DNA from: Verrucomicrobiaceae bacterium
GTDB lineage: Bacteria > Verrucomicrobiota > Verrucomicrobiia > Verrucomicrobiales > Verrucomicrobiaceae
Direction: 5' to 3'
Assembly: GCA_027487315.1 (NCBI GenBank)
Contig: JAIYDW010000182.1
Coordinates: 1 to 38,884, forward strand
DNA: 38,884 nt
The position numbers and the translations under genes were made by a program. Shown in pieces: positions 10,610 to 38,625 of this stretch; positions within the stretch are counted from its first letter, which is position 1; the number at the start of each line of letters is the position of its first letter. The notes beneath the pieces were generated by a model. That model made no database searches. It saw only the letters and a list, made by a program, of their open reading frames with translations, and was not told the DNA's origin.

Positions 10610-11056
10610 TCATCCGCCTGCGATCGGACTCCACACCCTCTCAAACCCAAACCCCTCGAAGTCTTTCACATTTGCCGTCGCGAACTCGGTGACGCCAAAC
10701 GCGCGAAGGCAGAGAGCGGTGCGGGTGTCGTAAATCCGGCGACGGGCGATGCCCGCAGCTCCAGCTTGCCGCCAGAGTTCCGCGTGGAGTTCCCGGCTGG
10801 TGGGCGGAAAACCCAGGATTTTCCAGCGCGGATGCTGTCGGTAACTTTGCACGACTGCCACGGCTTCAGGCGCCGTAAGCGGCTGACTGAGGACGGCAGG
10901 ATTCCGCAGCAGCAAATAGAATTCGGTAAGCACGAATTCACTGAGAGCCACATCCTCACGGTGGGACACCGCTTCGACGAACTGACGGGCCGCAGCGTGG
11001 TGAGGCGAGGCTTCGCTATAGCAGTAAAGCAGGAGATTCGTGTCGATGGAGAGCAT
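10610..11056 (-). CDS. PIN-domain toxin (VapC type), module 1
   Basis: A 148-residue PIN-domain ribonuclease. The metal-binding acids expected of VapC toxins are visible: D5 in LSIDTN, the Glu in LSEFVLTE (about residues 39-46), the Asp in IYDTRTAL (about 108-115) and the Asp in NVKDF (about 129-133). VapC enzymes cut structured RNAs such as initiator tRNA or 23S rRNA until bound by their antitoxin. The start at 11056 lies 19 bases after the stop of its antitoxin gene. About half of its residues match the toxin at 11392-11835, including SEF, LLRNP, IGFPP and GVTEFAT, so the modules arose by duplication. It converges on the DUF1501 gene, with a 109-base gap holding nothing recognisable. Confidence 0.9.
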   Translation of the reverse strand: MLSIDTNLLLYCYSEASPHHAAARQFVEAVSHREDVALSEFVLTEFYLLLRNPAVLSQPLTAPEAVAVVQSYRQHPRWKILGFPPTSRELHAELWRQAGAAGIARRRIYDTRTALCLRAFGVTEFATANVKDFEGFGFERVWSPIAGG

Positions 11057-11372: not shown

Positions 11373-11392
11373 ATCTGGAGTGTATTCCAGAT
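11373..11392. other. Inverted repeat between the two toxin-antitoxin modules
   Basis: ATCTGGA and TCCAGAT form 7-base arms around a 6-base loop. The repeat reaches the stop codon of the module 2 toxin and stands 42 bases upstream of the module 1 antitoxin. It lacks a following T-run, so it is a weak hairpin or second operator rather than a classical terminator. Confidence 0.4.
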
Positions 11393-11835
11393 CAGATAGA
11401 CAACGGATTCCATACCCGCGTGAACCCAAAACCCTGAAAATCTTTCACATTCACCGTCGCAAATTCAGTGACTCCCTCCTGAATCAAACTAAGCCCGGCT
11501 CGCCAATCAAAGGCACGACGGCGGGCGAAGTCCCTGCCTCGGAGTCTCGGCCAGAACTGATCGTGGAAACTGCGGCTGTCCGGAGGGAAGCCAATCACTT
11601 GCCAGTTCGGGTGCTGTCGAAAAGCCTCACAGACATCGACCGCTGCCGAAGCGCTGAGTGGCCTGGCCAGCACAACGGGATTGCGGAGCAGGCTGTACAG
11701 TTCCACCAGCATGAACTCGCTGATAACGACATCATCGCGATCCTGGAGCGAGTCAATGAAGGCGTATGCCCTGCCGTGAAGATCATGGTCCGCGTCAATG
11801 GCGGCAAACAGGATGTTGGTGTCGATGGAGATCAT
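11392..11835 (-). CDS. PIN-domain toxin (VapC type), module 2
   Basis: A 147-residue PIN-domain ribonuclease. The acidic residues are in place: D5 of ISIDTN, the Glu of ISEFMLVE (about 39-46), the Asp of AFDWRAGL (about 108-115) and the Asp of NVKDF (about 128-132). It starts at the ATG at 11835, overlapping the antitoxin stop by four bases (ATGA), which implies translational coupling. It shares with the module 1 toxin the order SIDTN - SEF - LLRNP - HPxW - IGFPP - FARRR/IARRR - GVTEFAT - NVKDF - GFGF - RVW. The variable stretch between D5 and SEF and the helix around residues 80-105 differ most, as expected if toxin-antitoxin pairing has become specific. Confidence 0.9.
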   Translation of the reverse strand: MISIDTNILFAAIDADHDLHGRAYAFIDSLQDRDDVVISEFMLVELYSLLRNPVVLARPLSASAAVDVCEAFRQHPNWQVIGFPPDSRSFHDQFWPRLRGRDFARRRAFDWRAGLSLIQEGVTEFATVNVKDFQGFGFTRVWNPLSI

Positions 11836-18456: not shown

Positions 18457-19993
18457 CACGCGCAATGTCCGCCTTCAGCGCGGCGAAGAGTTCCTTCGCT
18501 TTGTCGGGCTCTTGCGTGAAGACGTTCGTGGCTTCGCCGGGATCGGTGCGGAGGTTGTAGAGTTGGAACTTTTCAGTGGGGCCTTTGCCGGTGGTTTCGA
18601 CGATGGCGTCAGGCGTGATTGTGCCGTCCTTCACGGTATAGATCCAGGAGGGCAGAATGAGTTTCCAGTCGCCATCGCGGATGGCGAGCGTGTAGGAGCC
18701 GTAGTTCACGTGGACTATGCCGTTGCGAATGGGTTGCGCGGGTTTCTCGCCGCGCAGCAGCGGTGAGATGTCGAAGCTGTCCTCGCCGGCATCGTTCGGG
18801 AGTTTTTCACCGAGCAGCGCCGCGATGGTGGCCATCATGTCGCTGAAGCAGATCAACTCGTCGCATGAGCTGCCTGCTTGGATCTGCCCCGGCCAGCTCG
18901 CGATGAAGGGCATGCGATGTCCGGCTTCGGTGAGTGCGCCTTTCATGCCATTCCACGGACCGGCGGCGCGGTGGCCGAACTTCTCGATGTCTTGCGGATA
19001 CCAGACGGGACCGTTGTCGCTGGAGAAGACGATGAGCGTGTTGTCCCGCAGCTTCAGCTTGTCCAAAGTGGTCATCACCTGGCCGATCATGGCGTCCACG
19101 TTCATCACATAGTCGCCATATTGACCCGCGCTGCTCTTGCCTTTGAACTCGCTCGCAGTCGCCCACGGCGCATGAGGCGCGGGGATGGCGTAGTAGAGGA
19201 AGAAGGGGGCACTGTTCTTGGTTCCCTGTTCTTGGTTCTTGGTTCTTTTCTCGAGCCAGGCATCCGCCTTGCCGGCGATGGTGGAGAGATAGCCTTCGAA
19301 CTTCCATCCTGGTGCCGCGAGGCCTTTGCGCCAGTGTGCGCCTTGCGTCTCGGGATTCGTCACGCCTTCGCCGGGATGGTCTTCGATGGTCTCCGTCGGT
19401 GCGACGACGAAACGTTTGTTCTCGATGAACGCATACGGTGCCTGTTCCGGTGCATCGAAGCCGAAGTAGTCATCGAAGCCAAAGTCCACGGGCGACATCT
19501 TCAGCGTGCCATCCGCCTGAGCGGTCGTGGACATGCCCTGATGCCACTTGCCGACGCAAGCCGTCGCATAGCCCTGCCGCTTCATCAGCGTGGCGAGGTT
19601 CAAGCGCTGCGGCTCCGACTGGAGCATCGGCAGCGGGAAATGCAGCACCTCGTGACCGTTGCGGGTCGTTTTTTTGGCGTCCTTGGAGTTCCATGTGCGA
19701 TACGGCATCCGTCCCGTGAGCAGGCTATACCGGCTCGGCACACAAATGGACGCCCCCGCATGAGCATTCGTGAACTTCATGCCCTCCCCCGCGAGCTTGT
19801 CGATGTTCGGCGTCGCGATCTTCGACTGCGGATTGAAGCACTGCGGATCGCCCCAGCCCATATCATCGACGAGGATGATGAGGACGTTGGGCCGTGACGC
19901 AGGCACTCCTGCCTGCGGTGTTCCTGAAGCGCCATGCAGAACGGCCAGCGGCGCGAGAAGCAGAGCCGTGATGAGTGAGAGGATGTGTTTCAT
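18443..19993 (-). CDS. Secreted sulfatase, type I, with shortened C-terminus
   Basis: A 516-residue protein with a signal peptide (MKHILSLITALLLAPLAVLHGA). Sulfatase features: VLIILVDDMGWGDP near 38-50, the formylglycine motif ICVPSRYSLLTGR with C84, GKWHQGM near 150, and IVFSSDNGPVW near 320. It stops at ADIARGRSR, whereas the sulfatase at 14169-15752 continues from its GRS with TPGAPQKND and a tail. The missing end coincides with the gene remnant at 18313-18456. A Gln/Lys/Asn insert (RTKNQEQGTKNS) in the middle is encoded by five tandem heptanucleotides (19214-19248). Its start overlaps the stop of the beta-helix gene upstream by four bases (ATGA). It probably desulfates the same glycan attacked by the beta-helix proteins. 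Confidence 0.93.
   Translation of the reverse strand: MKHILSLITALLLAPLAVLHGASGTPQAGVPASRPNVLIILVDDMGWGDPQCFNPQSKIATPNIDKLAGEGMKFTNAHAGASICVPSRYSLLTGRMPYRTWNSKDAKKTTRNGHEVLHFPLPMLQSEPQRLNLATLMKRQGYATACVGKWHQGMSTTAQADGTLKMSPVDFGFDDYFGFDAPEQAPYAFIENKRFVVAPTETIEDHPGEGVTNPETQGAHWRKGLAAPGWKFEGYLSTIAGKADAWLEKRTKNQEQGTKNSAPFFLYYAIPAPHAPWATASEFKGKSSAGQYGDYVMNVDAMIGQVMTTLDKLKLRDNTLIVFSSDNGPVWYPQDIEKFGHRAAGPWNGMKGALTEAGHRMPFIASWPGQIQAGSSCDELICFSDMMATIAALLGEKLPNDAGEDSFDISPLLRGEKPAQPIRNGIVHVNYGSYTLAIRDGDWKLILPSWIYTVKDGTITPDAIVETTGKGPTEKFQLYNLRTDPGEATNVFTQEPDKAKELFAALKADIARGRSR
19214..19248. repeat. Five-unit heptanucleotide tandem repeat inside the sulfatase gene
   Basis: On the + strand the units are GTTCTTG, GTTCCCT, GTTCTTG, GTTCTTG, GTTCTTT. 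Seven is not a multiple of three, so gain or loss of one unit would shift the reading frame of the sulfatase. The encoded residues fall between the ADAWLEK helix and the FFLYYAIPAPHAPW strand, apparently a surface loop. Confidence 0.85.
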
Positions 19994-21942
19994 TTCGCTT
20001 TTGAGTTTGTCTTTGGCACATCTTGGAGCTGGTTGCCATCCAGCGTGATCTCTTTCGTTGCTTCCAGACCGACTACGCGGCTTTTACTCGTGGAATCGAG
20101 CTGAGTGTGGTTTTCGGGATCGGTGAGGGTGTTGCCTTTTAAGGTCACACGGGTGCTGTGGCGGAGGAGGATGGCTTGGCGGTCGGTTTCGTCGTCGGGT
20201 CGGGCGAGGAGGGTGGCGCGGACGGGGGAGTCGATGACGTTGTTTTCGATGCGAGAGTCTTGGATGCCGATGAGGTTCATGGCGGGGCCGCCGCTACGGG
20301 TGATCGTGTTGCCGGTGATGATGAGGCGCTCGATGGGTGGGGTGCCGAAGCCGCCTTGCGCATTGTGCGCGTGCGCCTCGATGGCGGGCTGATGGGGGCG
20401 TGAGCTGACATCAATAAAAGTGTTGTCGGTGATGGTGATGTCGCTGGGGATGCCGCCGACGAGGCCCATGCCGGTGTTGAGGCTGATGTTGCTACCCATG
20501 CGGGTGAAGGTGCAGCCACGCACGAGGCCGGGGCCGGACATGATGAGCAGGCGCTGGAAGTTGTCCTCCCAGCGGCAGTTTTGCACCACCCAGCCCGCGC
20601 ATTCGTGGTCGAGCCACTCGGCCTGCGCTTCGGCAAAGGGCGTGGCGTCTTGATCGAGGGTGAGTTGGTAATCGTGGTGCGAGATGAGCTTCGCCTCGCC
20701 GAGCAAAGCCCCGTTTTTGCGATGGATGAAGCGCAAGCGGTCGCCAGCACGGGCGTTGCGCAGCGTGGGAAGCAGCGCGCCATTGATCTCCAGAGTGACC
20801 TGTTTGCCGGACACGGATTTCACCTTGCCCCAGATGCCGTGGAAGTTCTGCAAATCATCGGCGGTGTGGCGGATGGTGACGTTGTCCATCACGCAGCCGT
20901 AGCGCGTGGAACGGCACAGGAAGCCGTCCGCGCCTTTCCATTGGCTGGTGCCGGGTCGCGGGCCGAAGTAGCAGTCTTTCCACAGATGCGCACCATCGCC
21001 GCCGCTCTCGCTGGGGCCGCCTTTGGCCACATAAACGCTGACGCCGTGCAGGGTGATGTTCGCTGAATCATCCAGCACGATGGCCCCCGCGCCGGTGTAG
21101 AGGCAGGAAAGGCCGTCGCCCACGCGCACCACGCCGAGGTCGCCATAGGCACGCTCCCAGTTCGCATCGTGAAGGCGCTCCATGAGCTGCGGTTCGAGCA
21201 TGTTCACCCAGTAACGCCCGCCATCGGAAGGTGTGATGTCTTTGTAGCGCAGCTTCCGCACACCGGCCTGCATGTCGTAGAGCGGCACGCAGAAGCGGCC
21301 GTCGCTCTTGAAGGGAAACAAGCGTTGCTCATCGGCCCCTTTGTAGCTCGTGGGCACCACCACACCGGGCGAGGGCTGGATCTCAAAGCGATTGCCCTCG
21401 CGGTCGATGCGCGTGATGCGGCCCTCGATGCAGCCGCGTGTGCCGCGATCAATGATCGCACCACGAAGGACGATGTTGCGGCAGTTGCGAAAGCCCACGC
21501 AGCGATGCCCCGGCGGCATTTGCTTGTCATCCAGGTCGAACCAAAACGTCGCGCCCGTAGCATCGATCACAAAGGGATGCTCGGCATCGCGCTGCAGGTT
21601 CTCAAAGCCGAGCGGGTAAATCACCTTCGCCCCCTGCCAGCGCTCCTGGCCGAAGCGATAGTCCCCCGGCGGGATGCGCACACTCTCCGCACCGCTTTCA
21701 AACGCCTTCATCACCATCGGCATCACGCCTTTTCCCAGCTCCCGCTGCGCCTCCTTCTCCGCCTCGGTGAACTGCGGCCCGGCGGGCAGGTCAAAACCGA
21801 AGCGATACTCCGCCGGCGGTGGTGACTTGGATTCCAAGATCACGCGTTGATGCGGCGAGAGGTGATCGCGAGCATCGGCTCCAAAAAGCGAAACCGGAGA
21901 CGCGAGAAAAAATGAGCCAAAGAGGATCAGCAAAGGTTTCAT
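19990..21942 (-). CDS. Secreted right-handed beta-helix protein, paralog A
   Basis: A 650-residue protein starting at the ATG at 21942 (MKPLLILFGSFFLASPVSLFGA, a good signal peptide; the in-frame ATG at 21954 is possible). The N-terminal block PPAEYRFGFDLPAGPQFTEAEK and the segment AGAESVRIPPGDYRFGQE, here with SGAESV, open the helix. Repeated coils with Asn/Val/Ile ladders follow, for example ITITDNTFID, LIITGNTITR and SRIENNVIDS (residues about 470-560), typical of parallel beta-helix polysaccharide lyases and glycosidases (Beta_helix/NosD-like). Catalytic residues cannot be named. It is clearly paralogous to 24050-25849. It is translationally coupled to the sulfatase by a 4-base overlap and follows the second beta-helix gene by 24 bases. 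Confidence 0.9.
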   Translation of the reverse strand: MKPLLILFGSFFLASPVSLFGADARDHLSPHQRVILESKSPPPAEYRFGFDLPAGPQFTEAEKEAQRELGKGVMPMVMKAFESGAESVRIPPGDYRFGQERWQGAKVIYPLGFENLQRDAEHPFVIDATGATFWFDLDDKQMPPGHRCVGFRNCRNIVLRGAIIDRGTRGCIEGRITRIDREGNRFEIQPSPGVVVPTSYKGADEQRLFPFKSDGRFCVPLYDMQAGVRKLRYKDITPSDGGRYWVNMLEPQLMERLHDANWERAYGDLGVVRVGDGLSCLYTGAGAIVLDDSANITLHGVSVYVAKGGPSESGGDGAHLWKDCYFGPRPGTSQWKGADGFLCRSTRYGCVMDNVTIRHTADDLQNFHGIWGKVKSVSGKQVTLEINGALLPTLRNARAGDRLRFIHRKNGALLGEAKLISHHDYQLTLDQDATPFAEAQAEWLDHECAGWVVQNCRWEDNFQRLLIMSGPGLVRGCTFTRMGSNISLNTGMGLVGGIPSDITITDNTFIDVSSRPHQPAIEAHAHNAQGGFGTPPIERLIITGNTITRSGGPAMNLIGIQDSRIENNVIDSPVRATLLARPDDETDRQAILLRHSTRVTLKGNTLTDPENHTQLDSTSKSRVVGLEATKEITLDGNQLQDVPKTNSKAK

Positions 21943-21966
21943 GGGGGGATTCATTTCAGTGGGAAG

Positions 21967-23970: not shown

Positions 23971-24051
23971 AAAGTGGCTGTGGGTTCGCTTCGCGGCTTC
24001 GCAGTAGCCGCATCTGATGGCGAATGATTCGGCTAAAGCCGAAGCCACTTT
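23971..24051. repeat. REP/BIME-like palindromic element, copy A
   Basis: The element runs from AAAGTGGCT to AGCCACTTT. The right hairpin TTCGGCT-AA-AGCCGAA is at 24028-24043. The left hairpin is longer and different, GCGGCT-TCGCAGT-AGCCGC at 23993-24011, making this copy 81 bases instead of about 62. Its last bases supply the TAA stop of the beta-helix gene at 24050. It separates that gene from the next one, so it could mark an RNA processing or attenuation point in the operon. Confidence 0.85.
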
Positions 24052-25849
24052 ATGGGTCCGTGAGCGGTCGGTTATCTTTGACGACGATGTCCCGGCACTG
24101 TTTCAGCAGCACCGGTTGCGAGTCGTCCTGGGGCGATGCTTTGCCGGTGAGCGCACGAGGCTTGCCGGAGTTTTCAAAAGTGTTGCCCGTGATGCTGCCG
24201 CCGGACACGAGGCTGAACTCAATGGCACGTCGGCCTGAGTTGATGAAGCGGTTGCCTTGCACGGTGAGGTCGCTCAGCAACGGCGTGCTGGCGGCGTAAT
24301 TCAACGACTGAAAGCCGGCCGACAGCGCCACGCCATCGGGATGGATAGCGACGTCTTCGAAGACGTTGTCGAGGATGCGGATGCCGTGACAGAGGCCGCC
24401 TTCGTTGCGGGTGAAGAAATTGCTCGCCAACTCGATCCCAGAGCCGATGCGGGTGAAGCGGCAGTTGCGCAGCGTGCCTCCGCGGCTGCCTTGAATGAGA
24501 AACCGCTGGTAGCAATCGCGGAAATCGCAGTCGCGGACTTCCCAGCCGTTGTTTTGCCAGCGCGGATTCTCCGCCACGGCCCGGGCCAGAGGCGCGGCAT
24601 CGCGGTCGAGCGTCAGTTCCAGATGCTTCGCTGACTCGACGACGGCGCTTCCCAGCGGTGCGCCGGTTTGCGAGTCATAGAACTGCAGCCGATCGCCGGG
24701 ATGGGCGGGCATCTCGGAATCGCGATGCAGCGTGATCGTGCGGCCTGAGACCTTCTCGATGTAACCCCAGAGGCCGTTGAAATTGATCAGGTCGTCGGTG
24801 GTGTGCAGCATGGTGCAGCCAACGAGCGTGCTGCCACGCTCCATTCCGCCGCTGAGGAAGCCATCGGAGCCCTGCCAGTGACAGGTGCCCGGTCGCGGGC
24901 CGAAGAAGCAGTCGTTCCAAAGATGCCCGCCGCCGCCACGCGCTTCGAGCAGGCCGCCTTTGGTGATGTAGTTGCGCACGCCGACGAACGTCATGCCGGT
25001 GCAGCCGATGACGCCAATCGCCGTGGTGGAGGTGCGGATCAGGCACAAGCCATCGCCCACTTGCAGCGTGCCGCTGGTGCCATAAGCACGCATCCACGCG
25101 GGATCGCTGTTGGCCTTCAGCAGTTCGGACTTCGCATCCAGCACGACCCAAAAGCGTCCGTGCGCCGTGCCTGGTTCCACGCGGCTAAAGTTCAGCCCGG
25201 CCTGGCTGGTGACCTGAAAGGAATAGAAAGCAGCGCAGAACGTGCCGTCGCCATTGAAAGGCACCAGCCGCCCACTCGTGGTTCCACCGGCCTTCGTGAG
25301 ATCGAGCGTGCCTTGCGTCGCCTCGATCTCGATGCGGTTTCCCTCCGTGTCGATCTGCGTGATGCGGCCCTCCATGCAGCCACGCGGATCACGATCCAGC
25401 GTGGCCCCCTCCAGCGTCACATGGCTGCAATCGACAAAGCCAAGCGCGAAGTGATTGCTGGGCCATGCGTCCGGCGGCAGATCGAACCAAAACGTGACCC
25501 CATGCGCGACGATGCGAAACGGCTTCGCGGAGTCGCGCTTCAGGCCGCGAAAATCCAGCGCATACACCGGGCCGTCCTTATCCCAGGTCTCCTGACCAAA
25601 GCGATAGTCCCCCGGAGCCAGCGTCACCGACTCCGCCCCCGCCTCAAACGCCTTCCGCACCATCGGCACGACCTGCGCCCCCTTCGCCCGCTGCTCCACT
25701 TTCTCCGCCTCAGTGAACACCGGCCCGGCAGGCAGATCAAAGCTGAACCGATACTCCGCAGCCGGTGACGGCGAGACAGGATCGCGAGCATAGGCGGCGT
25801 GGAGCGAAGTCAGCGACAGAGCGGCGAGGAATAGAAGCGTGGATCTCAT
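24050..25849 (-). CDS. Secreted right-handed beta-helix protein, paralog B
   Basis: A 599-residue protein from the ATG at 25849 (MRSTLLFLAALSLTSLHAAYA, a signal peptide). An in-frame extension to 25909 is encoded by a repeat and is unlikely to be real. It matches paralog A (19990-21942) over its whole length: AEYRFSFDLPAGPVFTEAEK, GAESVTLAPGDYRFGQETW, VTFWFDL, GCMEGRITQIDTEGNRIEI, FGPRPGT, TTDDLINFNGLWG. Late coils (LRNCRFTRIGSGIEL, IRILDNVFEDVAI) show the beta-helix ladder. It is the first gene of the minus-strand glycan operon. There is no Shine-Dalgarno sequence, because the palindromic element sits one base from the start codon. Probably a polysaccharide lyase or glycosidase; not proven. 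Confidence 0.9.
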   Translation of the reverse strand: MRSTLLFLAALSLTSLHAAYARDPVSPSPAAEYRFSFDLPAGPVFTEAEKVEQRAKGAQVVPMVRKAFEAGAESVTLAPGDYRFGQETWDKDGPVYALDFRGLKRDSAKPFRIVAHGVTFWFDLPPDAWPSNHFALGFVDCSHVTLEGATLDRDPRGCMEGRITQIDTEGNRIEIEATQGTLDLTKAGGTTSGRLVPFNGDGTFCAAFYSFQVTSQAGLNFSRVEPGTAHGRFWVVLDAKSELLKANSDPAWMRAYGTSGTLQVGDGLCLIRTSTTAIGVIGCTGMTFVGVRNYITKGGLLEARGGGGHLWNDCFFGPRPGTCHWQGSDGFLSGGMERGSTLVGCTMLHTTDDLINFNGLWGYIEKVSGRTITLHRDSEMPAHPGDRLQFYDSQTGAPLGSAVVESAKHLELTLDRDAAPLARAVAENPRWQNNGWEVRDCDFRDCYQRFLIQGSRGGTLRNCRFTRIGSGIELASNFFTRNEGGLCHGIRILDNVFEDVAIHPDGVALSAGFQSLNYAASTPLLSDLTVQGNRFINSGRRAIEFSLVSGGSITGNTFENSGKPRALTGKASPQDDSQPVLLKQCRDIVVKDNRPLTDP

Positions 25850-25850
25850 G

Positions 25851-25912
25851 AAAGTAGCTGCGGCTTTAGCCGCATTCAATGCATACACGTCGGCTGAAGC
25901 CGAAGCCACTTT
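25851..25912. repeat. REP/BIME-like palindromic element, copy B
   Basis: A 62-base element with ends AAAGTAGCT and AGCCACTTT. The hairpins are TGCGGCT-TT-AGCCGCA (left) and TCGGCT-GA-AGCCGA (right). It lies one base upstream of the start codon of the beta-helix gene, in its mRNA leader, where a ribosome-binding site would normally be. Two stable hairpins at that spot could reduce or gate translation. Confidence 0.87.
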
Positions 25913-33577: not shown

Positions 33578-33640
33578 AAAGTGGCTGCGGCTTTAGCCGC
33601 ATCAATGAGCGAACGATTCGGCTAAAGCCGAAGCCACTTT
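33578..33640. repeat. REP/BIME-like palindromic element, copy C (clearest copy)
   Basis: A 63-base element with matching ends AAAGTGGCT and AGCCACTTT. It holds two hairpins, TGCGGCT-TT-AGCCGCA (33586-33601) and TTCGGCT-AA-AGCCGAA (33617-33632), i.e. two inverted copies of one ~25-base unit. It sits six bases after the stop of the large secreted protein gene and about 200 bases before marR. The remaining gap (33374-33577) holds the marR leader and nothing else recognisable. Confidence 0.9.
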
Positions 33641-33646
33641 GGGGAC

Positions 33647-36136
33647 TCACCGATACTCAAGCTGCGCCGAGGCGGTGCAGTCCGCGCTGGCCTTCACACG
33701 GAGCCAGTGGGCGGCGTAGCCTGGGGGGAATTCGTGCACGAGGGGCTTGCCGGGCTCGACGGTGAGTTGCTGGTAGGCGTGCCATTGGCCGTCGGCGTAG
33801 AAGTCCACTTCGAGGGTGAACTCGACGGGGTGTTGGGCGTCGTGCGAGAGGGTGAGGGTCTTCTTGTCGTAGCCGGTGAGGAGATAGGGATCGCTGGGGG
33901 CGTGGGCTTTTACGGCGGTGTCGCGCCATGGGCCGCCGGTGCCGCGCGGTTTGCCCATTTTCCAGAGGTCGTCGATGGCTCCGAACCAGAGTTTGGCATC
34001 GGTGCTGCCGAAAATGTGGCCGTCGTTGGCGGCATCGGCTTTCACACCGCTGAGGACGAGCATGCCGCGCCAGACGCAGAAGTCGGTGATGGGTTTGTGG
34101 TGCGTGGCGACGGGTTTCATGCGCTGGAAGTCGGGCATGTTGCGCTGGCCGGAGGGTGAGGTGCCGCCGCGCGGGACTTCGTAAAAGGTGCCGTGGTAGT
34201 TGGCGAGGTAGCGCTCTTGAATGCACTCGCGGATGCTGCGGGAAGCGGGTGCGCTGCTGAGGGCGGCATCGCCTTTCGGCAAACGGAAGCGCTGGCCGTC
34301 GTAGCGTGTCACGATGATCGACGCGGCGTCTTCGGCGAACTCGTTCTTCAAGGCATGCGTGTCTTGCAGCTTGGCGACTTCGGCTGGCGCTTCGGTGGCG
34401 TGGAAGGCGAGCTTTTCATCCACCTCGAAGTAGCGACCATCGCGGGTGAGGAACTGTAAGTTTGTCGTCGGGAATCCGGCGCGGACGATGCCGCCGATGC
34501 TGGTCGCGGATTTGGAGGCCATGGAGAGACCGTCGAAGAGGCAAGCTTCATCGGGCGAGGAACGGCGCGGAGTCGAGACGTGCAGGAAGGCGGTGGCGAT
34601 GCCGTCGGCGTTCGCCTTCACGCGTAACCATGGAGCCTTGAGGTCGCTCGGGAGGATCAGGGGCGAGTAGCCTTTGGTCGGTAGGTCGCGGGTGATGAGT
34701 TCTTTCCACTGACCGCTGCCATCGGCATCGGTCTCGATGGTGAAACTCACCGCGGCATCGCCATGATTCACGAGATGCAGGCAGCGCAGCTCGTAGCCGC
34801 CGATGAGGATGGCATCGCTCGGCGTGTTCGCTTTCACCGCATCTTCCACCCACACGCCGCCTCGTGCTTCGGCGGGGCCCCACGATGGCAGGTCATCGCG
34901 TTGAAGGAACTGCATGTTTGAGTGCGGCTGGCCGGGCACCGTGAAAGGAATGCCGTGCACCGAGGTCGCCTGCTGACTGAAGACGAGTTGTTTGTTCCAT
35001 TTCGTCATGTCGGTGACGGTGACGAGCGTGGACGCGATGTGTCGCAAGCCAGCGCAATGGCCGTGGCGAAAGCCAATGGGCAGCTCGTAGAGGCCGTTGT
35101 GCAGGAACATCAAACGCGGGCCATCGCCCACGTCGCAGATGCGCGGCCATTCGGTGTTCGAGCCATGCATGCCATCGGCGGTGTAGCTCGATTTGGGCAG
35201 GCGATAAGTCGTCCACGTGCCAGACTTCTCGCGCACCTTGATGAAGGCCGAGCGCAAGTCCCAGCCGAGCGCCCAGACCGGTTCGTCATCGCTCGTCGCG
35301 CCCGTGAGTCCACCGGGGCCGGTGATATCGAGATGCTGACGCCGCGAGAGAATGCGCCACATTTTGCCATCCCACTCGCCGAGGTTGCCGATGTCCTCGC
35401 TGATGCCGCGCCACATCGTCTGCCCCGTCTGGCGCGGCGTGGCGAGCGGTTGACACGGCGTTTGCAGATACGGCCACGTCAGCTTCTCCGTCTCGAACTT
35501 CGTCGCCGCGCTGGTGTAGTCCACTTTCCAAAAGGGCGACGGCGCTGGGTCTTCACCATTCGCTGCGATGAAGAAGCGTCCCTGAGCTGTCCACGCGCCT
35601 TTGTAGTGCCAGCCGGGCAGCGGTTTCTTGAAAAGCTCCGTCACCGCCAGCGAATGCACATCCACTTCATAGACCGCACCTTCCTGCGTGAGGTAGAGCA
35701 CCTTGTGCTCCGGGTCGGTGAGATGCCGCGCCAAAGCGGTGAGCCGTCCAGGCAGCTTATCACGTGGGATGACGCGCACCTTGCCCGCTTCATCAATGGC
35801 ATACGAAGCGATGAACAACTGCCGCGACTCGCGATGAATCATCCGGCAGGCACTCGTGCCGCCCACACTCTCCGTCCGGATCTCCAGCGACATGTCAGGC
35901 AGGATGGCGAAGAGCTTGTCATTGCCGCGCCCGAGGTCGTGAGACGTGTAAGTCGTGCTCCACAGCTTCCCCGCCCACGGCACCGCCGCGCCGAGTCCGC
36001 ATTCCATGGCCGACCTCTCGCGCTTTGGGTCGGAATTGAACACCGTGAGATGCGGATAGATGCCGGAGACGCTGAGCGGATCAGCGGCGTGGGAGCAAAC
36101 GGCGAGCAGAAGAGTGGCGGCCAACGTGGTTTTCAT
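33647..36136 (-). CDS. Large secreted protein, unknown, with duplicated C-terminal module
   Basis: An 829-residue protein from the ATG at 36136 (MKTTLAATLLLAVCSHAADPLSV, signal peptide). The frame extends to 36364 but overlaps the AraC gene there, so the extra part is not credible. I do not recognise a named domain. The first ~400 residues have short beta-strand-rich repeats with WDG, LYxLT and GxFxxA patterns that suggest a propeller. Residues about 423-523 and 731-828 are clear copies of one ~95-residue module: W-x-x-x-A-V-K-A, PSD, GY, then a V-x-F-T-x-E strand, GQW and a WLRVKA-x-AD ending, probably a beta-sandwich. It follows the PocR/AraC regulator by 79 bases and may be its target. The function is unknown; perhaps it binds or acts on extracellular glycans. 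Confidence 0.82.
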   Translation of the reverse strand: MKTTLAATLLLAVCSHAADPLSVSGIYPHLTVFNSDPKRERSAMECGLGAAVPWAGKLWSTTYTSHDLGRGNDKLFAILPDMSLEIRTESVGGTSACRMIHRESRQLFIASYAIDEAGKVRVIPRDKLPGRLTALARHLTDPEHKVLYLTQEGAVYEVDVHSLAVTELFKKPLPGWHYKGAWTAQGRFFIAANGEDPAPSPFWKVDYTSAATKFETEKLTWPYLQTPCQPLATPRQTGQTMWRGISEDIGNLGEWDGKMWRILSRRQHLDITGPGGLTGATSDDEPVWALGWDLRSAFIKVREKSGTWTTYRLPKSSYTADGMHGSNTEWPRICDVGDGPRLMFLHNGLYELPIGFRHGHCAGLRHIASTLVTVTDMTKWNKQLVFSQQATSVHGIPFTVPGQPHSNMQFLQRDDLPSWGPAEARGGVWVEDAVKANTPSDAILIGGYELRCLHLVNHGDAAVSFTIETDADGSGQWKELITRDLPTKGYSPLILPSDLKAPWLRVKANADGIATAFLHVSTPRRSSPDEACLFDGLSMASKSATSIGGIVRAGFPTTNLQFLTRDGRYFEVDEKLAFHATEAPAEVAKLQDTHALKNEFAEDAASIIVTRYDGQRFRLPKGDAALSSAPASRSIRECIQERYLANYHGTFYEVPRGGTSPSGQRNMPDFQRMKPVATHHKPITDFCVWRGMLVLSGVKADAANDGHIFGSTDAKLWFGAIDDLWKMGKPRGTGGPWRDTAVKAHAPSDPYLLTGYDKKTLTLSHDAQHPVEFTLEVDFYADGQWHAYQQLTVEPGKPLVHEFPPGYAAHWLRVKASADCTASAQLEYR

Positions 36137-36215
36137 CGAACGATGATCTTGCCGAGCGACCGGCTTTTTTCCATGTCTCCAGACGACTGATCTTTGGTCT
36201 GGATCCGACACAGCG

Positions 36216-37121
36216 TCAGGCGGTGGCACGCGCCGCATACTCGCCCGGTGTGCTTTGCATGAGGCGCTTGAAGACCTTACCAAAATGAGCCGCGTCCGCA
36301 AAACCCACGCGCAAAGCGATCTCGCCCACGGAGTAGCGACCGCTCTCCAGCATCCTGCAGGCATGATTCACCCGCACACGACCGAGAAAATCCGCCAGCG
36401 TGCCCTTTGTGTGGTGGCGGAAAAGCCGGCCCAGATGATCCGCATTCACCTTCAGTGACTCGGCCACGCCAGCCAGCGTCATCGGTTCGGCATAATGATG
36501 GTGAACAAGCTCCATCGCACGCCGCAGCATCACCGGAAACTCCATCGCGGAAATCCACGGCAGCCCACCACGTCGAGGCAGGTCATTCTCCAGAGGCACG
36601 CCCCAGGCCTCCGCCAATCGCGCGGCCATCTGCGCCACCAGGCGCAACCTCGCACGACGCGGCTCGATCTCCGCCGCCTCAACGTGCGCCGTCTTCATCA
36701 TCTGCTGCAACAACGGCTCCGCAGGCACTCCGCGACGCTGCGCATACCGCCGGATGCGCCGCTCCGCCTCCGCCTCGGTCCCACGAACGATCACCGATCC
36801 ATAATAGAAAGCCCCCAGCACACGCCCCTTCACCACCAGCGGCTCCACCATGTCCGTGAGCCCAAGATGGCACTGACCGACAAAGCCCACGCCACGCCGG
36901 ATCAGCACCCGATTGACTGCATGCTTGTTGTTCAGACATCCGCGCAGCGTCGCTCCCGTCTTCGCCAACACACAAAACTCACAGCGATGAATCTTCCACT
37001 GCTCCGGCAAAGCCAAGTCCGGCACCCGTCGCGCCAACCCTGCCAAATCCGAAAAGCTGATGCGCCACGGCCCCTCATCTTCGACCAGGGTGAGGAGTTG
37101 TTCGAGGAGGGAGGGTGGCAT
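36216..37121 (-). CDS. AraC family regulator with PocR-type sensor domain
   Basis: A 301-residue protein from the ATG at 37121, preceded by AGGTG with seven bases of spacing, better than the GTG at 37130. The N-terminal ~170 residues are PocR-like (IHRCEFCVLAKT near 44-55, RGCLNNKHAVNRV, GFVGQCHLGLTDMVEPLVV, GRVLGAFYYGSVI). The Cys-x-x-Cys and further Cys residues are typical of PocR sensors, which bind small metabolites or metals. The C-terminal ~100 residues are a double HTH AraC domain: MTLAGVAESLKVNADHLGRLFRHHTKGT, then YSVGEIALRVGFADAAHFGKVFKRLMQSTPGEYA. It probably activates the adjacent genes. It lies between the cyclase gene (24-base gap) and the large secreted protein gene. Confidence 0.92.
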   Translation of the reverse strand: MPPSLLEQLLTLVEDEGPWRISFSDLAGLARRVPDLALPEQWKIHRCEFCVLAKTGATLRGCLNNKHAVNRVLIRRGVGFVGQCHLGLTDMVEPLVVKGRVLGAFYYGSVIVRGTEAEAERRIRRYAQRRGVPAEPLLQQMMKTAHVEAAEIEPRRARLRLVAQMAARLAEAWGVPLENDLPRRGGLPWISAMEFPVMLRRAMELVHHHYAEPMTLAGVAESLKVNADHLGRLFRHHTKGTLADFLGRVRVNHACRMLESGRYSVGEIALRVGFADAAHFGKVFKRLMQSTPGEYAARATA

Positions 37122-37793: not shown

Positions 37794-38585
37794 TCAGTGC
37801 ATCAATTCCACCTTGCTCATCATCACGGCCTGTCCACGCAATAACACTTGATCATCTCGCACGCTAAGTTTCACGAGTCCGCCGCGTTCGCTGGCTTGAA
37901 AGGCGGTGAAATCGGATTGGCCGAGTTTACCCTGCCAATAAGGTCCGAGCGCACAGTGGGCGGAGCCCGTGACTGGGTCTTCATTCACGCCTGCAGCCGG
38001 AGCAAAGAATCGAGAGAGGAAATCATGTTCGGCCATTTCGCCGCGACAGGTCACGATGACGCCTCGAACGGGGAAGGCGGACAAGGCCGCGAGATTCGGC
38101 TTCAAGCCGCGAAGCACTTTTTCACTGGCCACTTCGACGAGGTAATCCATGCCGTTGAACCCGCAGGCAATCAGTTCGCAGCCCAAAGCCTGCTCCATAC
38201 CCGCAGGGACGTCACAGGGGTCACAAGCCACCGCCGGGAAATCCATTTCGATCCAGTCACCTTCTCGGCGACAGGTCAGCCAGCCACTCAAGGTATGAAA
38301 TCGCGCTTCCTGATCCGCTGAAAGCACGCCTGTCTCCCACAGCGCAAAGGCTGCCGCCAGTGTGGCGTGACCACAGAGCTTTACCTCCACAGTCGGCGTC
38401 AGCCACCGAAGCGCGAATCCTCCTTCCATCGGATGCAGGAATGCCGTCTCGGAAAGATTCATCTCACGAGCGACAAACTTCATCCATGTATCTTCCGCAG
38501 GTTGATCCAGGATACAAATAGCTGCCGGATTGCCGGCGAAGGGTTGGCCCGTGAAAGCGTCGATGATGTGAAGAGTTTTTGACAT
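37794..38585 (-). CDS. PhzF family isomerase-like protein
   Basis: A 263-residue protein. The N-terminal IIDAFTGQPFAGNPAAICIL is the PhzF signature. The conserved Glu is in MNLSETAFL (about 42-50), the second motif is LCGHATLAAAFAL near 70-82, and the C-terminal half has NEDPVTGSAHCALGPYW near 200-216. The fold is a diaminopimelate-epimerase-like double barrel. PhzF itself isomerises dihydro-3-hydroxyanthranilate in phenazine synthesis. Most relatives, including this one outside a phenazine cluster, act on unknown small molecules. It is upstream of the cyclase gene with a 3-base gap and starts 16 bases from palindromic element D. Confidence 0.93.
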   Translation of the reverse strand: MSKTLHIIDAFTGQPFAGNPAAICILDQPAEDTWMKFVAREMNLSETAFLHPMEGGFALRWLTPTVEVKLCGHATLAAAFALWETGVLSADQEARFHTLSGWLTCRREGDWIEMDFPAVACDPCDVPAGMEQALGCELIACGFNGMDYLVEVASEKVLRGLKPNLAALSAFPVRGVIVTCRGEMAEHDFLSRFFAPAAGVNEDPVTGSAHCALGPYWQGKLGQSDFTAFQASERGGLVKLSVRDDQVLLRGQAVMMSKVELMH

Positions 38586-38600
38586 TTTTTGGAGAGAACA

Positions 38601-38625
38601 ATTCGGCTAAAGCCGAAACCACTTT
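38601..38625. repeat. REP-like palindromic element, copy D (half element)
   Basis: One unit only: TTCGGCT-AA-AGCCGAA (38602-38617) followed by ACCACTTT. It lies between the PhzF-like gene and the stop of the secretin-like gene, ending one base before that stop. It has one change from copy C (GCCAC to ACCAC). Confidence 0.8.

Follow-up and report, generated by a model that had tools for sequence, protein, structure and literature searches.

A REPIN family linked to one clade of RAYT genes in Verrucomicrobiaceae, apparently orphaned in its own genome

The window analysed here, a stretch of 38,884 nucleotides that makes up the whole of contig C217 in a 5.87 Mb genome of a Verrucomicrobiaceae bacterium (G000; 256 contigs, 98.67% complete), raises the question of what the short hairpin-forming repeats scattered along it are and by what they could have been moved. 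It contains three REPIN-type elements of 62-81 nt and one half copy, all built from a 24-nt unit, AAAGTGGCT-NCGGCTTNAGCCGNA. Each full element consists of two inverted units with their heads outward, and each unit of an AAAGTGG tag followed by a hairpin whose loop is usually TTNA:

23971-24051: REPIN copy A; right unit at 24028-24051 (minus strand) intact, left unit with about 18 extra bases.
25851-25912: REPIN copy B; units at 25851-25874 (plus strand, AAAGTAG head) and 25889-25912 (minus strand).
33578-33640: REPIN copy C; units at 33578-33601 (plus strand, G:C type) and 33617-33640 (minus strand, T:A type), with a 15-nt spacer.
38602-38625: single unit D (minus strand) with a AAAGTGGTT head, the half copy at 38601-38625.

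The original prediction had placed all four where they are listed here and had given them shared ends; the places hold, and the end letters fail at the start of copy B, which begins with AAAGTAGCT and not AAAGTGGCT and has GTAG as its left tag, and at the end of unit D, which ends in AACCACTTT and has TT instead of CT ahead of the stem. The compensated base pair that it saw in copy C, G:C in the left unit and T:A in the right, proved exact. Copy A is enlarged in its left arm, where only a 6-bp stem is left and the loop is longer; it has in common with copy C a spacer that ends in GCGAAYGA, close forms of which are found in copies from other genomes. Within the window, GGCTNNAGCC occurs 8 times compared with 0.86 expected (0 of 100 shuffles reach 8), six of these within copies, and folding relative to shuffles gives z = -8.2 for copy C, -4.4 for B, -3.8 for A and -2.2 for D.

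Copy A overlaps the TAA stop codon of a minus-strand open reading frame (ORF) at 24050-25909 by its last two bases, and copy B lies upstream of the ATG of this ORF (25849, minus strand), one base away; copy C follows the stop of the minus-strand ORF at 33647-36364 by 6 nt, and unit D lies upstream of the minus-strand ORF at 37794-38585, 16 nt from its start. None of the window copies is certainly within a gene, and copy B could lengthen the start of one. An empty site was sought for copy C in three congeners and not found; only a 141-bp piece matched beyond the family elements. Several side observations concern the genes themselves. At 25847-25912, copy B adjoins the ATG so closely that a ribosome site would not fit outside the element, and a GTG at 25909 in its unit opens an in-frame N-terminal extension (MASASADVYALNAAKAAATF). 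The ORFs at 19990-21954 and 24050-25909 are related, probably through a duplication: segments of the two, always about 3.9 kb apart, are 70-76% identical in DNA, and two similar small ORFs, which we take to resemble PIN-domain proteins, are neighbours at 10610-11056 and 11392-11835.

Together with the window, 162 loci provided a non-redundant set of 289 units at up to 4 mismatches, from which loci repeating the window copies were excluded. In this set, stem pair 10:23 is T:A in 157 units, G:C in 105 and other in 27, and the adjacent pairs also swap as pairs (11:22 is G:C in 10, 12:21 is A:T in 7); tag column 6 holds G in 267 units and A in 16, so that the tag is mostly GTGG and in some units GTAG. 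The stem covariation expected of such a family is strong: among 92 distinct units from relatives, 47 changes affect both sides of a pair compared with 18.9 when shuffled, a count that 0 of 500 shuffles reach, and paired cells make up 90.0% compared with 80.8% in shuffles and 16-44% in slid controls. Two further measures, the number of pairs with a double change (4 compared with 2.8 shuffled; 123 of 500) and the number of pair types (12 compared with 10.3; 89 of 500), are not above shuffles, because most of the change falls at one pair.

Neighbouring units less than 150 nt apart are arranged heads-out in 105 of 118 cases, one of the 105 being an overlapping case, and the spacers of these pairs are mostly 4-18 nt long. 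Their arms combine a G:C with a T:A unit in 72 of the 105 pairs, and are T:A/T:A in 15 and G:C/G:C in one; the 79 single units include 44 of T:A and 27 of G:C type. The excess of mixed pairs arises from the common descent of a two-armed element. Mixed arms keep each unit hairpin and break the long fold at this position, so it is the small hairpins that are preserved. A tag 5' of a palindrome, a dispersed multi-copy family and a covarying hairpin are the marks of REPs in the GTAG superfamily, and two inverted units a short distance apart, dispersed as a unit, those of a REPIN.

The hairpin family is centred on Verrucomicrobiaceae, with few members outside. At one mismatch or less, the unit pattern matches in 39 of 68 genomes of the bacterial family, with up to 50 matches per genome, compared with no match in any of the 68 for the reversed pattern used as a control; in a class-wide sample of 384 genomes it matches six, two inside the family (G000 and G002) and four outside (G305, G309, G501 and G511). 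Named genomes, when scanned, yielded at least 109 stretches; among those listed, the titles are of Verrucomicrobiaceae, Prosthecobacter and other Verrucomicrobia, some of them labelled Opitutaceae or Akkermansia. Scanned with a covariance model, eight genomes hold 0-61 units each (61 in G001, none in G011 and G017). The many genome-wide copies that had been expected are present in relatives; the window's own genome partly falls short of this, with 14, six of them in the window contig. From the pattern scan of this genome only the 12 matches at 0-1 mismatch were used, before the covariance model gave 14; a scan at up to 3 mismatches was discarded, with 17 matches compared with 27 for the reversed control.

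The units of the own genome are clustered (on C217, C218, C222, C245 and C50), with six of the 14 on 0.66% of the genome. By tetranucleotide distances, 15 sampled contigs of the 256 fall into two loose groups, which fit the presence of units imperfectly: C50 is in the other group, and C27 and C103, with no units in the stretch read, group with the unit-bearing contigs. A mixed bin is a possible reason for the clustering. In the related genome G028, the model finds 22 units, and 12 of the 15 listed lie on one 158-kb contig (C15) together with the cognate RAYT, several of them less than 10 kb from it, as if spread were local.

A RAYT gene bracketed by window-type hairpins, as the original prediction foresaw, was found in seven related genomes, six of them with an intact gene; this is the arrangement of a REPtron. 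Such genes (in L057, L081, L114, L129 and L153) were found with the proteins of the own-genome PF01797 matches, among loci fetched by the unit alone. In L057, L114 and L153 the units overlap the RAYT coding region and encode both ends of the protein: the N terminus is ...SSAKAEATFF in L057 and L114 and ...SSAKAEATLAATFF in L153, and the C terminus ...KVASALAE in all three, with a variant in L129. The L153 gene is split by a frame break.

A search with the 201-residue RAYT core matched in 65 of the 68 genomes. At 69% core identity or more (G028, G043, G054, G049, G057, G001 and the split G051), the flanks carry CGGCT stems with GTGG/GTAG tags; at 59-62% (G023, G025) they carry TTGGGC stems, and at 48-51% (G026, G033, G041, G042) GTACTC-GAGCT stems. 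In a RAYT tree of 47 rows, built from 49 loci of which two were excluded, one as a repeat and one as split, the six intact RAYTs that lie between CGGCT stems form one clade (support 100/98; 0 of 500 shuffles), and four stem labels require 4 changes compared with 14.5 when shuffled, these labels coming from a simple stem search in which 32 rows are labelled 'none'. Between 7 and 50 units are present in each of the seven RAYT-bearing genomes (median 15), compared with a median of 1 in the remaining 61, a difference with a Mann-Whitney p of 1.4e-4 that is uncorrected for relatedness. Against this association, units are also present in G040 (36), G060 (28), G039 (27) and G061 (9), where those of the RAYT loci that were fetched have other flanks.

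The 201-residue core found no Pfam match at 0.001, and NCBIfam NF047646 gives the RAYT 76.8 bits (E 1.5e-21), below the curated cut-off of 80. PDB entry 4er8 (TnpArep) matches at E 1e-6, with MPNHLHAL aligned to its HMH stretch and YRRYIAENP to its VDYIYINP stretch, as candidates for the HUH motif and the catalytic tyrosine. We file the predicted gene as RAYT-like by position, relatedness and the 4er8 match rather than by NF047646.

A RAYT-linked copy can be compared with dispersed ones in G001, where all six dispersed pairs examined that have 43-46-nt spacers (three in L063 and one each in L141, L146 and L149) resemble the spacer of the REPIN 5' of the RAYT (L081), with 64-83% identity and scores that none of 300 shuffles reach in any of the six. 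The longer spacers of the RAYT-linked copies in L057, L114, L153 and L048 are not convincingly like that of L081.

In the window's own genome the situation is different. The statement that no RAYT lies in the window is correct: the seven PF01797 matches in the genome are all on other contigs, and none is flanked by the window hairpin. The best of them is 55% identical to the cognate RAYT and lies on C172 with other hairpins in its flanks. The own-genome copies are probably orphans of a lost or unassembled RAYT, or are served in trans by another. Three own-genome RAYTs have different hairpins of their own on both sides, namely AAAGTAGTGC-type GGGCTTCAGCCC units on C172 (L003), GACAGGT on C10 (L004) and GGCAAGCA on C129 (L005). 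Two shorter tyrosine-transposase genes (L001 on C27 and L002 on C103) are of another group; CCGGTGGT...ACCACCGG hairpins are found near L002, and a relative in L157 stands near a window-type REPIN.

The elements lie mostly outside genes. After the exclusion of 10 at locus ends, 175 of 185 elements were scored, and for 135 the score shows no read-through of a gene; the other 40, at 15 distinct sites, are read through in frame, and the sequence scores as coding on either side of them. The three richest sites, with 9, 8 and 6 of the 40, are in DUF1549/DUF1553 proteins, at the PSCyt1-PSCyt2 junction and in the PSD1 part, and in a segment of sulfatases. Further sites are found in the type I restriction methylase HsdM, in a type ISP restriction enzyme, in DUF7133 proteins, in a DUF1552 protein and, at the PSD5-PSD4 junction, in a DUF1592-type protein. 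In HsdM, three genomes carry a REPIN in frame (93-100% alike; SSI-VESGFGFSR...AATT-LLT), a 68% identical relative (G153) has a short segment instead (SI-ATAFKGDT-LLT) and represents the empty site, and a genome of the window's genus (G005; L223) has a different in-frame insert of about 40 residues at the same place, which suggests that this linker tolerates elements of several kinds. A local BLAST for empty sites showed a gap in 10 of the 40 by a loose rule, most at only 24-45% identity, and is given no weight here. The nine copies in the DUF1549 linker have a common place, orientation and frame; we do not claim repeated independent insertion into these paralogues, as inheritance explains the nine equally well.

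We are highly confident that the copies are REPINs, that is, non-autonomous mobile elements that would be moved by a RAYT/TnpA-REP HUH enzyme acting on the folded unit. What is observed is the family, its structure, its covariation and pairing geometry, its co-inheritance with one RAYT clade and the shared spacer in G001. Covariation and RAYT association support the REP/BIME-like family moved by a RAYT that was originally proposed; action on single-stranded DNA is carried over from known enzymes. The element would be an inverted REP pair, each REP being a 6-8 bp hairpin preceded on its 5' side by the tag GTGG or sometimes GTAG. By analogy with known RAYT enzymes, the RAYT would recognise the folded unit as single-stranded DNA, cleave beside the tag and insert the element without target duplication, mostly into gene junctions, and some copies would have become fixed, in reading frame, in loops or between the domains of proteins.

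Hairpins at gene ends could instead have been retained for a role in RNA, as terminators, mRNA stabilisers or processing sites, with the covariation reflecting RNA folding. The window copies do touch or stand near gene ends and starts, and stem covariation would appear identical in either case. Nevertheless, we consider this very unlikely: the units surround one RAYT clade, the dispersed spacers in G001 go back to the RAYT-linked copy, 40 of the 175 elements are inside reading frames, and an Rfam search of the window gave no match. A secondary RNA role may exist beside transposition. The perfect 9-bp inverted ends of copy C would also suit a MITE of a DDE transposon with AAAGTGGCT terminal inverted repeats. 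We give this still less credence, since the gene found between those ends is a RAYT-type HUH enzyme and not a DDE transposase, the inner hairpins covary, and a target duplication is not evident by eye in the flanks.

Within the preferred reading of the copies as RAYT-moved REPINs, the in-gene copies allow a further idea, which is tentative and, in our view, rather improbable. The units that encode the N-terminal (SSAKAEATFF) and C-terminal (KVASALAE) ends of the RAYT stay open in frame and might therefore be pre-adapted to enter host genes unbroken, so that a RAYT would time and again seed short alanine-rich linkers into domain junctions of a few large families, namely DUF1549/DUF1553 proteins, sulfatases and restriction enzymes. 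If true, this would provide a transposase-based model for the origin of Rickettsia-type in-gene palindromes. The in-frame copies and the one empty site offer a test of protein linkers from mobile DNA, and the series of RAYTs with CGGCT, GGGCT and GAGCT stems is useful for how these enzymes read hairpins.

The family with its RAYT clade is ordinary in kind, real and well supported, apparently orphaned in its own genome, and it adds a defined pair to a phylum with little study of such pairs. A search of the open-access literature did not find this hairpin family and its RAYT clade, and one for Prosthecobacter with REP elements returned none. Pseudomonas REPINs are reportedly also two inverted REP units that form one element linked to a RAYT; compared with them the present family is modest (0-61 units per genome in the eight scanned with the covariance model) and its two arms are usually of two stem types (72 of 105). 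The mechanism and the in-gene location are already in print, and the kind is known. Passages of PMC8266576 describe that RAYTs recognise the tag and hairpin, with strand-specific cleavage of single-stranded REPs for other RAYTs. Di Nocera et al. (2013, PMC3733652) distinguish GTAG and CGTC REP families, report RAYT genes with REPs flanking and overlapping them, and find in-gene GTAG repeats to be most numerous in O. terrae, a verrucomicrobium in which most GTAG-20 elements have GTGG. The present family is like O. terrae GTAG-17, -19 and -20 in its tag and hairpin, inverted dimers, RAYT-flanking position and in-gene copies; with GTAG-20 it is compared by description and not by consensus letters, and it differs in being centred on Verrucomicrobiaceae. 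Extracts of PMC10969869 and PMC3733652 also describe Rickettsia palindromic elements (RPEs) fixed in frame inside protein genes, a likeness to the in-gene copies found here; according to the extracts of the latter, RPEs carry a CGTC tag, whereas the present units have GTGG or GTAG and a linked RAYT, which places them outside the CGTC group.
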